From positions 124,001 to 188,000 of the forward strand of contig NZ_NSIU01000001.1 in assembly GCF_002633015.1 (NCBI RefSeq): 64,000 nt of DNA, given 5' to 3'. Below, in pieces: positions 57,733 to 64,000 of this stretch (the first letter of the stretch is position 1; each line of letters begins with the position of its first letter). This DNA comes from Sulfuricurvum sp. PD_MW2 (GTDB lineage: Bacteria; Campylobacterota; Campylobacteria; Campylobacterales; Sulfurimonadaceae). The translations under genes and the position numbers were made by a program. The notes beneath the pieces were generated by a model. The model had not been told where the DNA came from and ran no database searches. It saw nothing but the letters and a program-made list of their open reading frames with translations.

Positions 57733-59718
57733 TTATACCATCTCACTCCCCATTTTTTCTTGATCGAAATAGGTTATTTGGTTTCGACCGTTCTCTTTTG
57801 ATAGGTACATCGCTGCATCGGCGTGGCGGACCAAAATCTCAATTTCATCTCCGTGATCAGGATAAAATGCCGCGCCGATACTCACCCCGATGCTCATAAA
57901 TTTTCCGTTCACCAAAAACGGTTCTTTAAGCGCTTTTAAGATTCTTTCAAAGAGCGGATGGACATCTTTGATCGAAGCGATATCACTAAAAATGATAACA
58001 AACTCATCCCCCCCGATTCGAGCTATGGCATCACTTTGTCGAAGCTCTTTTTCCAAACGGTGAGAGACTTGACGCAATAAATTATCACCCGCATCATGCC
58101 CGTGGGTATCATTAATATTTTTGAACCCATCCAAATCCAAAAATGAGATAACCGCTTTTGTCTTGTTTCGCTTTGAAAACGAAAGAATCTGCTCTGCCAA
58201 TGTGAGGAAAAGATGACGATTCGGCAAATTGGTCAACGGATCATAATTGGCCATATGGTGTAGCTGCTCTTGACGTATTTTATGCTCGGTAATATCACTG
58301 AAAATACCGATGTAGTTTTCTACATTCCCATCTTTGTCACGTATTGCATCAATTCTTAAGAACTCGGCATAAAGTTCACCGCTTTTTTTCTTGTTCCATA
58401 TCTCTCCGCGCCAGGAGGCATTCACCCGAATCGCTTCGTCCAGTTTGTTATAAAACTCTTTTTCATGAATTCCCGAACGTAATAAAACCGGTTTTTGTCC
58501 GATTACTTCTTCTCGAGCATACCCCGTAACCTCACAAAATGCTTCATTCACTTCGATAATATATTTTTTGGTATCGGTTATAACGATACCTTCTCGCGAA
58601 TTATGGAAAACTCCCGCAGCACGGCGCAATGATTTTTCATGTGCTTGAACAAGTTGAACCTGATTTTCAAGTGATACCGATTTGAAATGCAATCGATTCG
58701 TCAATTGTCTCATTTTACCCACCAGAAAAATCAAAAGAATGATTACCATACTGAGAGAAAGTATGATATATAAACCATATCGGGTAATAACATCATGAAG
58801 AGAAAAACGGGGAAGCGTATCATAAGGTTTTACCCGCAACTCCTGCATCATCGTACGAATTCCCTCATAGGATAAGGGGATACTCCATCCGTAATATCCT
58901 GCTTTTTTAGTAACATCTGAACCATAAGGGAGCTTGAGCAATGCCACGACCACTTTGTTTGCCAAAGTATGGTTTGTTTTTTTGGTGGATGCAAATGGCC
59001 ATTCAGGGTAAAGCGTCGTAGAAAGAGCTAATGGAAAGTTATCAACCGGATGGATGATTTTAAAATCTTCTCTTTTGATTTTCCCCTCTTTTGCCATTTT
59101 TTCCAGTACACCGGTTCGAATAAATCCGATATCCGAAGCCCCTCTTTCAACACTATACACAACCTTGTCGTGCGGCATATCAACAAAAGCAATGGTTGTT
59201 TCATCGACAATATTAATACCGTTCTCCTCGAAAAGTTTCCGCTGTGCCAAATAGCCTCCCAGTGAGAGTTCATCAACCGCAGCAACTCTTTTCCCTTTGA
59301 TGTCATTGAGATTTTTGATATCACTGCGGTTAGATCGGCTGATTATCACTCCTCCAAACTCTGTTAGCTCTTTACCTCCAATATTTGTTCGAATCAATGT
59401 CGCTATCCGTGTAGCATCATATTTTGTCGAAAGGTAGATATAGTGTTCGGGATTGGTGAACATAAAATCGAGTTCATTGGCTTTTGCCGCATCGTTAAAC
59501 TCAGCATAGCTCAAAGGTCGAATTGTAAAAGAATGGGTAGAAATTTGTGTATTCAAATAATCGGCTAAAGGCTGCCACTCGTGAAGTGTCTCGGCTTTAG
59601 AACGAAACGCTAAAACACCTATCACAGCTGTAGGCTTTTTTGATAATGAAGATTGCGCTTCAACAGAAGCCATCAAAGAGACAAGAGCTAAAAAGAGTAT
59701 AAAAATAGACTTGATCAT
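57733..59718 (-). CDS. PhnD-like periplasmic sensor with PAS and GGDEF domains
   Basis: 661 residues. A signal peptide (1-21) leads to a PhnD-like phosphonate/oxyanion-binding domain (about 30-290). One membrane helix (about 315-336) follows, then a PAS domain (about 370-478) and GGDEF domain (about 495-655). The signature GGDEF is at 569-573 with inhibitory RQSD at 560-563. So a periplasmic ligand likely controls c-di-GMP output inside. It is the last gene after the Sox-linked genes, on the same strand. The start ATG at 59718 has GAGG six bases before it and lies in a hairpin. Confidence 0.93.
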   Translation of the reverse strand: MIKSIFILFLALVSLMASVEAQSSLSKKPTAVIGVLAFRSKAETLHEWQPLADYLNTQISTHSFTIRPLSYAEFNDAAKANELDFMFTNPEHYIYLSTKYDATRIATLIRTNIGGKELTEFGGVIISRSNRSDIKNLNDIKGKRVAAVDELSLGGYLAQRKLFEENGINIVDETTIAFVDMPHDKVVYSVERGASDIGFIRTGVLEKMAKEGKIKREDFKIIHPVDNFPLALSTTLYPEWPFASTKKTNHTLANKVVVALLKLPYGSDVTKKAGYYGWSIPLSYEGIRTMMQELRVKPYDTLPRFSLHDVITRYGLYIILSLSMVIILLIFLVGKMRQLTNRLHFKSVSLENQVQLVQAHEKSLRRAAGVFHNSREGIVITDTKKYIIEVNEAFCEVTGYAREEVIGQKPVLLRSGIHEKEFYNKLDEAIRVNASWRGEIWNKKKSGELYAEFLRIDAIRDKDGNVENYIGIFSDITEHKIRQEQLHHMANYDPLTNLPNRHLFLTLAEQILSFSKRNKTKAVISFLDLDGFKNINDTHGHDAGDNLLRQVSHRLEKELRQSDAIARIGGDEFVIIFSDIASIKDVHPLFERILKALKEPFLVNGKFMSIGVSIGAAFYPDHGDEIEILVRHADAAMYLSKENGRNQITYFDQEKMGSEMV

Positions 59719-59751
59719 CTTATACCTCACTTAGTCTCAGTATAAGATGAT
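59714..59751 (-). promoter_or_regulatory. Perfect 12-bp inverted repeat containing the start codon of the PhnD-PAS-GGDEF gene
   Basis: Arms ATCATCTTATAC (59714-59725) and GTATAAGATGAT (59740-59751) with a 14-base spacer. In the mRNA, the 3' arm contains the AUG and the spacer-arm boundary contains the GUGAGG ribosome-binding site. The structure could hide the start codon, act as an operator, or end the upstream transcript. It is present in the sequence; the function is inferred. Confidence 0.6.
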
Positions 59752-59777: not shown

Positions 59778-60686
59778 TTATTCAAGCGTACTTTGGAGTA
59801 CGGCTTCAAAATCTTTTTGCGCCTGAAGTAATACTGCTTTTGCTTCTGCATCATTTACACGAGCACTGCTCATCCAGTTATAAACACCCGGGAAACCCAT
59901 TACGATTTCGTTTGCATCTTTCTTTTTGTATACCATCAATGAACACGGAGCAAAAGCTGCGGCTTCAGGACGCGTTTTTGCTACCGTATAAATGACTTTT
60001 AATTTACAGATTGAGTAAGTATCATAAAAGTTAAATGGACTTGGTGTATTGCTTTCGTTCAGGATAAAGTTATAGTCAGTAAAGTTAGACAATACAAATC
60101 CAGCCGGTTTCAATCCCTCTTCAATCATCATCTCAGTGTTCTCTTTGTCACCTGACCAACTCTCAGCGCTCGTTGTACGTACGTATTTGGTTAATAGTTT
60201 TCCCTCAGATGGTAAAGATGCTTCACTTACACTAAATTTCGCGCTCGGTAATGCTTTTTTGAGAGTATTCAAGACTTCTTTTTCGATCAATGCAAATTCA
60301 GGAGCATCAAAACCTGCGATTTTTTTCATCGATTTTGCTGTTAGCACCGAAACATGAAGAGCCTTGTCATCTTTACGTTGATAGATCCCAAATCCCATCG
60401 GAACGAAAATCCCTGCGTCAGGATGTGATTTCACCAATGACGCCGCTAACTTTTTATGAAATCCCGTCAAAAGATTGAATTGAGCAAAATCGCTTTGTCC
60501 GAATTGTTTCATAAACGGACCGTTCATCTCACTGTTCGCCGAAATCACAAAACCGTTCGCTTCCAGGGCTTTTTCAATGACGCCTGCATTGACTTTTCCA
60601 TCAGCGTTCGGAACACTGATCAAATGCAAATCTCCCCCAAAGAGAGATAAAACTCCTATTACTAATAACAAAACAATGTTTTTCAT
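59778..60686 (-). CDS. Exported tandem DUF302-like protein
   Basis: 302 residues. A signal peptide (about 1-18) implies the periplasm. The mature protein has two related halves. The first (about 20-120) includes ALEANGFVIS and GIFVPMGFGIYQRKDD. The second (about 185-285) includes EEGLKPAGFVLSNF and AAAFAPCSLMVYKKKD. This is the DUF302 pattern. DUF302 proteins have no settled function but are often near sulfur genes in this phylum. It lies 8 bases downstream of the DsrE-like gene. Confidence 0.75.
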   Translation of the reverse strand: MKNIVLLLVIGVLSLFGGDLHLISVPNADGKVNAGVIEKALEANGFVISANSEMNGPFMKQFGQSDFAQFNLLTGFHKKLAASLVKSHPDAGIFVPMGFGIYQRKDDKALHVSVLTAKSMKKIAGFDAPEFALIEKEVLNTLKKALPSAKFSVSEASLPSEGKLLTKYVRTTSAESWSGDKENTEMMIEEGLKPAGFVLSNFTDYNFILNESNTPSPFNFYDTYSICKLKVIYTVAKTRPEAAAFAPCSLMVYKKKDANEIVMGFPGVYNWMSSARVNDAEAKAVLLQAQKDFEAVLQSTLE

Positions 60687-60694
60687 ACTGACTC

Positions 60695-61129
60695 CTATGG
60701 TTGAATATAAAATGCGCCCTCTGTGGCACGTTCGATCACTTCTGCAATCCCTGCACTGACAATTTCGACATCATCATCGAGCTGATCGGGAGTGATTTTT
60801 TTAGTCTCCATCGTATTGCCGCATGCAACGAATTCGACACCGTATTGCTGCAACGCTCTGACGCGTACCGCAATATCTTTTTCACTTTTAAGCAACGTTC
60901 GGATACCGTGATAGTACGCGACGATACGCAGGTGAATTTTCTCAGGTCCGTAAAATTTGAGAATATTGTTCGCAGTACTCAAACCGTGGTGAATTGCTTC
61001 ATCATCCCCATGACTGATCCCCATAACCACTTCTCGCGGTTTTTCCATCGTCGGAATCGGTTCCGCCAAACGGACATCACCGAAAGCAAGTACCGATAAA
61101 AAGGAGAAGAGTACGATAAAGCGTTTCAT
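60695..61129 (-). CDS. Exported DsrE-family protein
   Basis: 144 residues. A signal peptide (about 1-17) followed by a DsrE-type fold: MGISHGDDEAIHHGL near residue 35 and the conserved Cys in FVACGNTM (about 106). DsrE-family proteins carry sulfur as persulfide. Being exported is unusual for them and suggests a periplasmic sulfur role. The ATG at 61129 overlaps the upstream stop by one base. Confidence 0.85.
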   Translation of the reverse strand: MKRFIVLFSFLSVLAFGDVRLAEPIPTMEKPREVVMGISHGDDEAIHHGLSTANNILKFYGPEKIHLRIVAYYHGIRTLLKSEKDIAVRVRALQQYGVEFVACGNTMETKKITPDQLDDDVEIVSAGIAEVIERATEGAFYIQP

Positions 61130-62040
61130 TATTGTTCCCATTCCAAAACCCGATACGAAGCTTCAACGTTTCCGCCTTGCATTGCATCGTACAGTTTTAG
61201 TGAGCGATATTCGCGCATCTGTACTTTTTTGATTGTCTCATCAATACCCATCCCAGAATCGATCGCCGAACGGATTTCGGAACGCATTTGTGAAAGGTAT
61301 TCATGGGTCATTTTCGAACTGTTCTTGTCACTATTGCGTCCATGTCCGCCGATCACGTGCAATGCTCCCATCGCTTCAAGTTCCTCAAGGGTTGTAATCC
61401 ATCCGTTGATATTTCCCCCTTTGACAGACGGAAGTCGATCATTAAATACCAAGTCTCCGGCAAACAAAACACCTAATTTTGGGAAATAGACCACTAAATC
61501 TTTTGTCGTATGGGCCATTCTAGGAATGATTTTCAATTCAACATCGAGATTGCCTACTTTTTTACGTGTACTCTGCGAAATCATCTCGCTTGGAAGGCTC
61601 ATCTCCGTCCCTTTGTACGCCTCCGGGGAAATAGTACTTTGCATTCGTGTCGCTTCATGCACATTTACATTGTGCAAAAAGTCATCCGAACCCACAACAC
61701 TAACTCCGTTTTGGGTAAAAAATCCATTACCGAGCCAATGATCGTCATGAATATGGGTATTGATGACGAGTTTAACCGGTAGCGGTTTGATTTTTTTCAT
61801 TGCATTGTATGCCGACTCGGCGTATGCATACGAGGGACCCGTATCAATGACTATATATCCCTCACCTGCATCGACATAACAGCTGTTTACGATATTGCCG
61901 TTGTTGGTTTTATTCATCACTTCAGGCGCACCAAAAAAACAGTGCACGTTTGAAGTGACTCGAACCGGTTTAAGTGCGTACTCAAATGCACTCAAGCTCG
62001 ATACAGTGAACAGAAAAGCAACCAACAACGTTTTCATCAT
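61129..62040 (-). CDS. Exported metallo-beta-lactamase-fold hydrolase (SoxH-like)
   Basis: 303 residues. A signal peptide (about 1-17). The metal site has THIHDDHW (about 96-103), a further His in MAHTTKDL, an Asp in LFAGDLVFNDRL, and a His in IGGHGRNSD. It resembles SoxH and the quinoprotein-linked periplasmic hydrolases. It probably acts on thiol or glutathione-type adducts in the periplasm, but the substrate is unknown. It is 7 bases downstream of the porin gene. Confidence 0.85.
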   Translation of the reverse strand: MMKTLLVAFLFTVSSLSAFEYALKPVRVTSNVHCFFGAPEVMNKTNNGNIVNSCYVDAGEGYIVIDTGPSYAYAESAYNAMKKIKPLPVKLVINTHIHDDHWLGNGFFTQNGVSVVGSDDFLHNVNVHEATRMQSTISPEAYKGTEMSLPSEMISQSTRKKVGNLDVELKIIPRMAHTTKDLVVYFPKLGVLFAGDLVFNDRLPSVKGGNINGWITTLEELEAMGALHVIGGHGRNSDKNSSKMTHEYLSQMRSEIRSAIDSGMGIDETIKKVQMREYRSLKLYDAMQGGNVEASYRVLEWEQ

Positions 62041-62047
62041 TCAGCCT

Positions 62048-63589
62048 TTAGAAGAGATAATTCATTTCAAAACGATATTCGTTATACGAGTTATTATCAA
62101 CCGTTCCTTGAACTGTTGCACTCGTATATGCCGGATCAGCGTTTACAGTTGCAAAACGAAATTTAAACTCTGTGTTCGGCAACGATTTAAACGTTTGTGT
62201 TGCATCTACATGGAAAATTGTACGGTCGGTAAATGTTGATGTAAATGCTTTTTTATCATCAAAATTCATATTTTCATAATCCGCTGCAACCAGCAATCCT
62301 GGAACCAATCCTGCTTTTCCGAAATCATATACTGCTTTTACAGCCCAGTTTTTCGTGTTTGCGATCCAGTCAACTTGCGCCATTGAACGGGTATATCCAC
62401 CTGTCGGAAATCCACGCCATGGAGCGATAATATCCGCATCATCCGAGATTTTTGAGTACCCGGCAGACAATTCTAACGGTCCGCTTGCCGCAACCAAACG
62501 CGCCATGATAATGCTACCATCCGCATTACGTGCATCTTTATATCCGCCTGAAGCGGTCCCCACTGGAATAGCTCTTAAGCTTCCGCTTAACGATGCACCA
62601 CCAATATATCCTGCGCCATCATCCATTTGTTTTAAGTAACGAATACCTGGGGTCAATGTCCAAGAATCATTCAGTTTGATTTGATAATTTGCTTCACCGA
62701 TTACGGTATTAAAAAATCCTTGGAGTCCGATATACTCACCATCAAGTTTTAAATTCGGGATTGATTTGTTAGAAACTGTCAACAATTTCATTTCAGGATC
62801 AACATCACCCCCACCTTTAGTACGAATATTGTATGCAGACAATCCTTTATGTGTCCCAGAATCATCATTGTATGCCGTTTTATCTGTACTTAAAGTTGCA
62901 CTGTCAGCTCCGCTGGCAATTAAACTATGAAATTCTTGGTGATCACGTAATTTTTGAGCCGTAATATATCCAGCACGAATGGTCGTGTCAGGAATATCTT
63001 TATTTTCAATCACAGCAGCTTCAAAGGTATTCGGAATCATTTTTGTGTCGTTGGTCGCAATCATGATGCTATCGATCCCTTGTCGCCCAACTTTAACATT
63101 CGTTTTGCCATTTTTGTATTCCAAATAAGCTTCGGCAAAATTCCCCATTGCACCTTCAGTGCCATCACGTCGTGTATGATAGGTATCTTTACCTGCTTTA
63201 CCAAAGTTTGTATTCGCTACTGCAGGGTCGATATTGTCTCTATGCATAGGAACAGTCCCATAAAATCCTGCTGTTGCACCTAAACCATGGAAAAAACCGG
63301 TTTTATAGACAACACTTCCCCCAAGTCCCCACATATTGTTATCACGTGTTTGGCTTGATCCAGATGTTTTTTCAGTATCCCAATCCCACCAGAACATATT
63401 CGAACGTAACCGGCCATATACTTCACCCTCTGTAAACATTTCAGTAAAAGAATTTACTGAACCCGGTGCTTTTGTATATTCAACTTGATAATTTGCTTTG
63501 AGCACGCGATCTTCTGTTTTAAGTGCATACGCTGACGTTGCCAACAAACAGGTAGCCGCTGCTACCATACTCAATTTCACTAATTTCAT
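62048..63589 (-). CDS. Outer-membrane porin of the Sox cluster
   Basis: 513 residues. A signal peptide (MKLVKLSMVAAATCLLATSA) is followed by alternating beta-strand sequence ending in the aromatic Phe typical of barrels (YRFEMNYLF). The length suggests an OprD-like barrel of about 18 strands. The ATG at 63589 has AAGGAG upstream. The cargo, perhaps thiosulfate or other sulfur oxyanion, is inferred only from position 38 bases after soxB. Homologous porins occur widely in this phylum. Confidence 0.88.
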   Translation of the reverse strand: MKLVKLSMVAAATCLLATSAYALKTEDRVLKANYQVEYTKAPGSVNSFTEMFTEGEVYGRLRSNMFWWDWDTEKTSGSSQTRDNNMWGLGGSVVYKTGFFHGLGATAGFYGTVPMHRDNIDPAVANTNFGKAGKDTYHTRRDGTEGAMGNFAEAYLEYKNGKTNVKVGRQGIDSIMIATNDTKMIPNTFEAAVIENKDIPDTTIRAGYITAQKLRDHQEFHSLIASGADSATLSTDKTAYNDDSGTHKGLSAYNIRTKGGGDVDPEMKLLTVSNKSIPNLKLDGEYIGLQGFFNTVIGEANYQIKLNDSWTLTPGIRYLKQMDDGAGYIGGASLSGSLRAIPVGTASGGYKDARNADGSIIMARLVAASGPLELSAGYSKISDDADIIAPWRGFPTGGYTRSMAQVDWIANTKNWAVKAVYDFGKAGLVPGLLVAADYENMNFDDKKAFTSTFTDRTIFHVDATQTFKSLPNTEFKFRFATVNADPAYTSATVQGTVDNNSYNEYRFEMNYLF

Positions 63590-63627
63590 TCCTAACTCCT
63601 TAAGTTTGATTACATTATGCGCATGGC

Positions 63628-64000
63628 TTAGCAGCCGCGAGCACCTTTTTTCGGGCATCCGCAGTCATAATCCATAATTTTGACATTGCTATTACCACTT
63701 ATATTAACATTTTTTTGCCGACGAATGTATGCAGAGGTTACATCATATACCGGACGGGTCAGCTGTTCTTTGAGATTGCTTCCCGCATTTTGGAGATTGC
63801 CGCCCCATGAAGATACTTTGTATACTTTCGTATCACTCAAAGGTTTCCCGCCTACCATGATATTCGTAATCCGTTTACCGCTCGGAGCACCGATACGAAT
63901 TTCATAGGTCACACCGCCCAAACGGCTCATATCTCCACCTTGTTGATAAAGCGGGTTGGCGTTGAATACATTATCCGCAATGTCTTCCAACAATGTTCGG
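63628..64000 (-). CDS. soxB: Sulfate thiohydrolase SoxB, C-terminal part (runs off the window)
   Basis: About 123 residues of the C-terminus are visible; the N-terminus with the dimanganese site is beyond base 64000. VFNANPLYQQGGDMSRLGG and GAPSGKRITNIMVGGKPL match the C-terminal nucleotidase domain of SoxB. SoxB hydrolyses sulfate from the SoxY-bound sulfane adduct during thiosulfate oxidation. The tail after residue 100 has a Cys-rich end (CGCPKKGARGC), which is unusual for SoxB as I know it. Confidence 0.9.
   Translation of the reverse strand, partial: RTLLEDIADNVFNANPLYQQGGDMSRLGGVTYEIRIGAPSGKRITNIMVGGKPLSDTKVYKVSSWGGNLQNAGSNLKEQLTRPVYDVTSAYIRRQKNVNISGNSNVKIMDYDCGCPKKGARGC

Follow-up and report, generated by a model that had tools for sequence, protein, structure and literature searches.

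The conserved 3′ tail of a Sox operon in Sulfuricurvum sp. PD_MW2 and its probable role in handling sulfur left on SoxYZ

Several Campylobacterota, a phylum of major thiosulfate and sulfur oxidizers in vents, aquifers, and oil fields, lack SoxCD. What becomes of the sulfane half of thiosulfate in such members is the question raised by a Sox locus at positions 59778 to 64000 of a 64,000-nucleotide stretch of the Sulfuricurvum sp. PD_MW2 genome (contig NZ_NSIU01000001.1, forward-strand positions 124,001 to 188,000; here called the window). The four genes that follow the end of soxB are the conserved 3′ tail of one Sox operon, and one of them encodes a DsrE-family protein that is the strict genomic partner of SoxB in our sample of Campylobacteria. 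We consider it probable that the products of this tail are envelope proteins dealing with the sulfur that remains on SoxYZ, with DsrE acting as a sulfur carrier. A small gene set tied to SoxB, with DsrE as its exact co-occurrence partner, makes the question testable.

Organization of the Sox operon

Four complete minus-strand genes were found 3′ of the soxB end, encoding in order a porin, a SoxH-related protein, DsrE, and a tandem DUF302 protein. Beginning at the soxB end, they are spaced by 38, 7 to 10, −1, and 8 bases, the negative value being the TAATG in which the stop codon of the SoxH-related gene overlaps the start of dsrE. The N-termini of all four proteins, judged by eye and by hydropathy, have a short basic start followed by a hydrophobic stretch (e.g., MKTLLVAFLFTVSSLSA and MKRFIVLFSFLSVLAFG). 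A preliminary description of this locus had claimed five tightly spaced genes on one strand, with an export signal in each but the incomplete soxB; the genes, strand, and spacing agree with our analysis, and the count is corrected to four complete genes plus the end of soxB.

Only the C-terminal 123 amino acids of SoxB are encoded in the window (63628 to 64000, minus strand), a fragment that matches TIGR04486, and the gene continues to position 189394 of the contig (G000:C23, where G000 is the genome of the window). In L002, a piece of the contig reaching beyond the window (window coordinate = 57000 + L002 coordinate), the whole soxB gene (L002:6628-8394) encodes 588 amino acids with a twin-arginine translocation (Tat)-type start (MDLSRRDFF) and scores 824.7 bits against TIGR04486 (cut-off, 550). 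Upstream of soxB are, in turn, soxA, soxZ, soxY, and soxX, each above its NCBIfam cut-off (SoxA, 211 bits against 110; SoxZ, 110 against 76; SoxY, 167 against 125; SoxX, 78 against 61), which places the soxXYZAB core of a Sox system in one cluster. Upstream of soxX, genes for a histidine kinase, a response regulator, and a dCache-domain protein form a sensor module. The operon, which starts outside the window, is dCache protein-response regulator-histidine kinase-soxX-soxY-soxZ-soxA-soxB-porin-SoxH-(thioredoxin)-DsrE-DUF302. Consensus promoters and terminators at the locus showed no excess over shuffled sequence and hence carry no information; the interval between the kinase gene and soxX contains one promoter-like site (L002:10650-10623).

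Conservation in Campylobacterota

The class sample comprised 249 Campylobacteria genomes, 39 of which contain SoxB (one incomplete, at a contig end). We examined the loci of the 38 SoxB genomes besides that of PD_MW2, plus 80 named loci fetched with the DsrE profile; as DsrE served as the query, counts for the named loci give the frequency of the other genes given DsrE. The preliminary description had pointed to the soxB neighborhoods of other Campylobacterota, where absence of the set would speak against its proposal. The set is present there: in the named loci whose upstream sequence spans 6 kb or more, SoxB was found in 53/53, the porin in 51, SoxH in 40, and a thioredoxin in 33, and DUF302 lies downstream of DsrE in 67/73 named loci.

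Sox clusters of type 1 have a long SoxX, a short SoxA, and the gene order soxXYZAB-porin-SoxH-(thioredoxin)-DsrE-DUF302. They were found in Sulfuricurvum, Sulfurimonas, Hydrogenimonas, Nitratiruptor, and others, and in the class sample they span five GTDB families; because the same full set recurs in the same order across these families, the arrangement is more than chance. In type 2 (Arcobacter-like) clusters, soxCD adjoins, DsrE is present, and the tandem DUF302 gene is absent. That the Sox system of Arcobacter butzleri is in this respect unlike that of Sulfurovum, Nitratiruptor, and Sulfurimonas denitrificans was pointed out in 2007 (PMC2147049). The sensor trio precedes soxX in 46 to 47 of 49 type 1 loci (the kinase in 44) and in 0/16 type 2 loci. 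Type 1 SoxB proteins also end in a cysteine tail, DYxCGCPxKG..C, which in PD_MW2 reads DYDCGCPKKGARGC (63628 to 63670) and lies past the last residue matched by TIGR04486 (575 of 588). This tail occurs in 18/20 type 1 loci of the class sample and in 0/17 type 2 loci; one of the two type 1 exceptions is a SoxB cut by a contig end, and the other ends in GCP.

The porin slot holds either an OprD-like or an unrelated Porin_4-type porin, depending on the relative, and the thioredoxin that usually stands between SoxH and DsrE is missing at this site in Sulfuricurvum-type loci. The thioredoxin homologue of PD_MW2 is encoded outside the window, about 35 kb from the Sox operon, in a row of genes for two DsrE proteins, a rhodanese, a thioredoxin, and an OprD porin (L162; G000:C23:219.2-222.3 kb). 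The idea of a periplasmic sulfur-handling branch put forward in the preliminary description is borne out as to the Sox link, but a separate branch of this size is too small a unit, being the tail of a longer operon with a sensor module and, in most relatives, a thioredoxin.

Several other arrangements were observed. The operon of Sulfurovum mangrovi, with its sensor module, is on a 395-kb plasmid record (NZ_CP087125.1; L155), where the porin slot holds short hypothetical open reading frames and soxB is not in the incomplete gene table. Three near-identical tandem units of 3,883 bases with thioredoxins, DsrE, and DUF302 were found in one genome (L163; G220:C1:1763639-1772873); at the junction a SoxH fragment is fused to the start of a 4Fe-4S protein, which reflects either a true amplification or an assembly error. 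A second Sulfuricurvum-type cluster (L089 and L090), with DsrE, SoxY, SoxZ, and two SoxB-like matches, differs from the main operon.

The plasmid record, together with the patchy occurrence of the operon within families, would fit a transferred island whose genes have unrelated envelope functions and neighbor soxB through shared ancestry. We regard this as very improbable, since DsrE is retained in four SoxB genomes though not near soxB, the porin slot has been taken by an unrelated porin, and dsrE, soxW, and soxH1 respond to thiosulfate in Sulfurovum indicum, being 2.17- to 3.83-fold up on thiosulfate relative to elemental sulfur (PMC10045233).

Co-occurrence of DsrE and SoxB

The dsrE gene (60695 to 61129, minus strand) encodes a 144-amino-acid protein with predicted export that belongs to the DsrE/DsrF family (PF02635, 36.8 bits; cut-off, 22.7), and its alignment profile matches 1l1s (E value, 1.7e-21). 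Its sole cysteine, C103, is invariant in 33 sequences, and its closest relatives are from Sulfuricurvum genomes. The DsrE profile matches 39/39 SoxB genomes (E value of about 1e-54 or better) and 0/210 others; the next matches, at 2e-26 and 6e-23, are second copies in SoxB genomes, and those that follow are at 1e-11 or weaker. DsrE is distant from soxB in four SoxB genomes (G003, G044, G058, and G237), so linkage alone cannot explain the co-occurrence. Three genera (g2, g5, and g49) each include genomes with both SoxB and DsrE and genomes with neither, i.e., joint loss, and 8/8 genomes with SoxC and without SoxB lack this DsrE. The Fisher P value of 1.7e-46 for the co-occurrence ignores relatedness and is descriptive.

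That these genes belong to the Sox system, as had been proposed from the window alone, is upheld by the presence of the set beside soxB in relatives, by the co-occurrence of DsrE and SoxB without exception in 249 genomes, and by the thiosulfate induction reported for S. indicum (PMC10045233). Beyond Campylobacterota, the search covered plasmid records, and weak further matches were set aside. On a plasmid of the alphaproteobacterium Indioceanicola profundi (L165), a 41% identical DsrE is encoded on the strand opposite soxB, some 5 kb away from it, which suggests that the DsrE-SoxB link may reach beyond this phylum; the DsrE match on an Acidithiobacillus plasmid (L166) has no sox genes nearby.

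The tandem DUF302 protein

The last gene of the operon (59778 to 60686, minus strand) encodes a 302-amino-acid protein with predicted export. Pfam detects DUF302 in its C half only (PF03625, 34.9 bits; cut-off, 23), and comparison of the N half with the C half by hhalign gave a probability of 97.6% (E value, 3e-12). The structural model, with a predicted local distance difference test score (pLDDT) of 91.6, matches the DUF302 structures 1q9u (template modeling score of 0.81 by target length) and 1j3m; family score, fold, and the two copies place the protein in PF03625. Residues C227 and C248 are invariant in the alignment.

At an E value of <1e-100, tandem DUF302 proteins were found in 22/39 SoxB genomes and in two genomes without SoxB. 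They occur in 21 of the 22 SoxB genomes in which soxC is absent or nonadjacent, compared with 1/17 with adjacent soxC, and in all nine SoxB genomes that lack SoxC. This distribution is what one would expect if DUF302 and the SoxH-related protein specifically replaced SoxCD, oxidizing or removing SoxY-bound sulfane, and a DUF302 gene is also present in soxCD-less clusters of Acidithiobacillia (PMC5037610). The idea is weakened by the presence of SoxC in 13 of the 22 DUF302-carrying SoxB genomes and by the finding that nine genomes have a further, more distantly related tandem DUF302 next to soxC; moreover, a redox cofactor is not known from either family. We therefore consider such a replacement quite unlikely.

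In a genome without soxB (G138), the tandem DUF302 gene comes after those for SoxYZ. Given this position and the copies beside soxC in nine genomes, the partner of the protein looks like SoxYZ rather than SoxB. In that genome, a flavocytochrome c sulfide dehydrogenase-like protein, SoxY, SoxZ, and the tandem DUF302 protein are encoded together (L160; G138:C2).

The SoxH-related protein and the porin

The SoxH-related protein (61129 to 62037 or 62040, minus strand; 302 or 303 amino acids; predicted export) has a metallo-β-lactamase fold (PF00753, 70.5 bits; E value, 2.4e-19) with the HxHxDH motif and the remaining metal ligands; H95, H97, D99, H100, H176, D195, and H232 are invariant or >90% conserved. 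Its model (pLDDT, 94.3) has 8d2z as the best PDB match; the nearest PDB entries are chlorothalonil dehalogenase and an uncharacterized Burkholderia protein, and the alkylsulfatase SdsA1 ranks below them. Hydrolysis of a SoxYZ-bound species by SoxH has been proposed (PMC10045233, PMC9122950). The porin gene (62048 to 63589, minus strand) encodes a 513-amino-acid OprD-family outer membrane protein (PF03573, 59.1 bits; cut-off, 25; E value, 5.5e-16) with a signal-like start; a longer open reading frame start at 63658 would overlap soxB.

The company these proteins keep also bears on a role in carrier maintenance, in which SoxH, thioredoxin, DsrE, and DUF302 would repair or reactivate SoxYZ by removing dead-end adducts and reducing disulfides, and would protect the periplasm from persulfides, off the main path. 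SoxH-related proteins are also found alongside fused SoxYZ-like carriers in pyrroloquinoline quinone (PQQ) dehydrogenase systems, DUF302 and SoxH-related proteins also stand beside SoxYZ at soxCDYZ loci, and thioredoxin is common in the set. DsrE, however, tracks SoxB and not SoxYZ, its absence from genomes with SoxC and without SoxB being a case in point, and we hold maintenance to be a possible but rather doubtful explanation of the set as a whole.

Fate of the sulfane

In the 99.99% complete PD_MW2 genome, no match to TIGR04555 exceeded the cut-off (best, 180.6 bits against 420), and the Sox system is therefore incomplete with respect to SoxCD. An assembly gap was rejected as the cause, since the slot occupied by soxCDYZ in a congener (L157) is filled by other genes between conserved neighbors in PD_MW2 (L156, on G000:C69). 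Neither DsrA above its cut-off nor YeeE/SoxT was found in this genome; heterodisulfide reductase-like and dioxygenase routes were not searched for. Sulfuricurvum kujiense and strain RIFRC-1 are likewise reported to be without soxCD (PMC4288042), and S. kujiense formed no elemental sulfur particles in 5 weeks on thiosulfate alone (PMC6890823). Since none of SoxCD, DsrA, and SoxT turned up, PD_MW2 needs some outlet for the sulfane that remains on SoxY once SoxB has acted, and the cassette is the best candidate for handling it.

The chemistry that we infer from the observed gene identities, operon-like spacing, order across families, and co-occurrence of DsrE with SoxB would run as follows. SoxXA would load thiosulfate onto the SoxY cysteine, and SoxB would cut off sulfate, leaving the sulfane as a SoxY persulfide. 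C103 of DsrE, as a periplasmic sulfur carrier, would receive this sulfane from SoxY, and a SoxW-type thioredoxin might hold the cysteines reduced. The SoxH-related protein, as a putative zinc hydrolase, could free SoxY or the carrier of sulfonate or thiosulfonate. The DUF302 protein, with its two cysteines, would act on or with SoxYZ, an assignment made because soxCDYZ loci and the soxB-less genome likewise pair it with SoxYZ. The porin may let thiosulfate in, or sulfate or polysulfide out. In genomes with soxCDYZ, the carrier may pass the sulfane on to a second SoxYZ; in PD_MW2, without SoxCD, DsrA, and SoxT, the product would have to leave as polysulfide or elemental sulfur or be oxidized by some other route.

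Several points weigh against this reading. The 39 genomes fall into 18 genera, so that the co-occurrence counts cannot be treated as independent, and joint loss is exaggerated where the genes are physically linked. Neither SoxH nor thioredoxin is essential at the site, as 13 of the 53 loci with sufficient sequence have no SoxH in its slot and this genus has no thioredoxin there. With SoxC present in 13 of the 22 DUF302-carrying SoxB genomes, the cassette is not simply a SoxCD substitute, and DsrE may be a sulfur sensor, store, or repair factor instead of a carrier. We found no biochemistry or knockout in the literature for any of the four proteins; in vivo support is limited to the raised expression of dsrE, soxW, and soxH1 on thiosulfate in S. 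indicum (PMC10045233).

A bolder extension of the carrier reading is that DsrE, tandem DUF302, and the SoxH-related protein, perhaps with the SoxB cysteine tail, make up a SoxCD-independent periplasmic sulfane route in Sulfuricurvum-like bacteria that have SoxXYZAB alone, with no SoxCD, reverse Dsr (rDsr) pathway, or SoxT import. The sulfane would be removed from SoxY and then given to a second carrier or oxidized. We offer this extension tentatively and think it less likely to be right than wrong by a clear distance.

Next downstream of DUF302, a gene at 57733 to 59730 (minus strand) encodes a protein with a PhnD-type binding domain, PAS, and GGDEF. It was rejected as an operon member, as it is a same-strand neighbor in only part of the Sulfuricurvum loci and is elsewhere absent or on the opposite strand, and it lies outside the conserved unit. 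The N half is similar to TtrS, a sensor of tetrathionate, at a score under the cut-off (172 bits), and the protein might be a sensor of a sulfur oxyanion.

Comparison with known systems

Parts of this picture are already known, namely, the dsrE-soxW-soxH1-soxB neighborhood in one species, soxH with soxCDYZ, and DUF302 in sox clusters of Acidithiobacillia. In the open-access literature, which is what the search covered, we found no report of the full unit, including the porin, tandem DUF302, and the sensor module, nor of the exact DsrE-SoxB coupling or the SoxB cysteine tail, and priority is therefore uncertain.

The closest known locus is that of S. indicum ST-419, in which dsrE-soxW-soxH1 lies beside soxB-A-Z-Y-X (PMC10045233). 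It matches the PD_MW2 locus in the kinds of genes and in their relative order beside soxB, but the available parts of the report mention no porin or tandem DUF302, and PD_MW2 lacks the thioredoxin between SoxH and DsrE. The soxCDYZH cluster of Sulfurimonas (PMC9122950) and soxCDY2Z2H2 of Sulfurovum (PMC10045233) share SoxYZ and a SoxH-related hydrolase, and in our analysis soxCDYZ-type clusters also contain tandem DUF302, a MOSC protein, and often a thioredoxin. They differ in being linked to soxCD and lacking SoxXA and SoxB, and genomes with this cluster alone are without the periplasmic DsrE family.

In the soxXYZAB clusters of Acidithiobacillia, a 191-amino-acid DUF302 protein is encoded between soxA and soxB, for which the authors speculate on periplasmic trithionate oxidation (PMC5037610). 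The likeness is that a Sox cluster lacking soxCD encodes a DUF302 protein; the protein of Acidithiobacillia is shorter and differently placed, and no SoxH, DsrE, or porin is described there. The nearest curated SoxH-like relatives are the quinoprotein relay zinc metallohydrolases TIGR04558 and TIGR04559 (e.g., Pseudomonas putida PP_2678; PMC12997753), which occur with a SoxYZ-like carrier. The SoxH-related protein falls below both cut-offs (191.9 bits against 300 and 201.0 against 280, respectively), and this locus has no PQQ dehydrogenase context.

The DsrE/TusD sulfur carriers share with our protein the DsrE/DsrF family and one conserved cysteine. The protein here has an export-type N-terminus, no TusB/C or DsrF/H partners adjoin it in the operon, and the TusC model gives 12.8 bits against 94.15, which sets it apart from the DsrEFH/TusBCD relay. 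The Arcobacter-type single-cluster Sox system (PMC2147049), finally, combines SoxXYZAB with the same DsrE family, but it has adjoining soxCD, another SoxXA type, and MOSC and α/β-hydrolase neighbors, and it has neither the tandem DUF302 nor such a sensor module.

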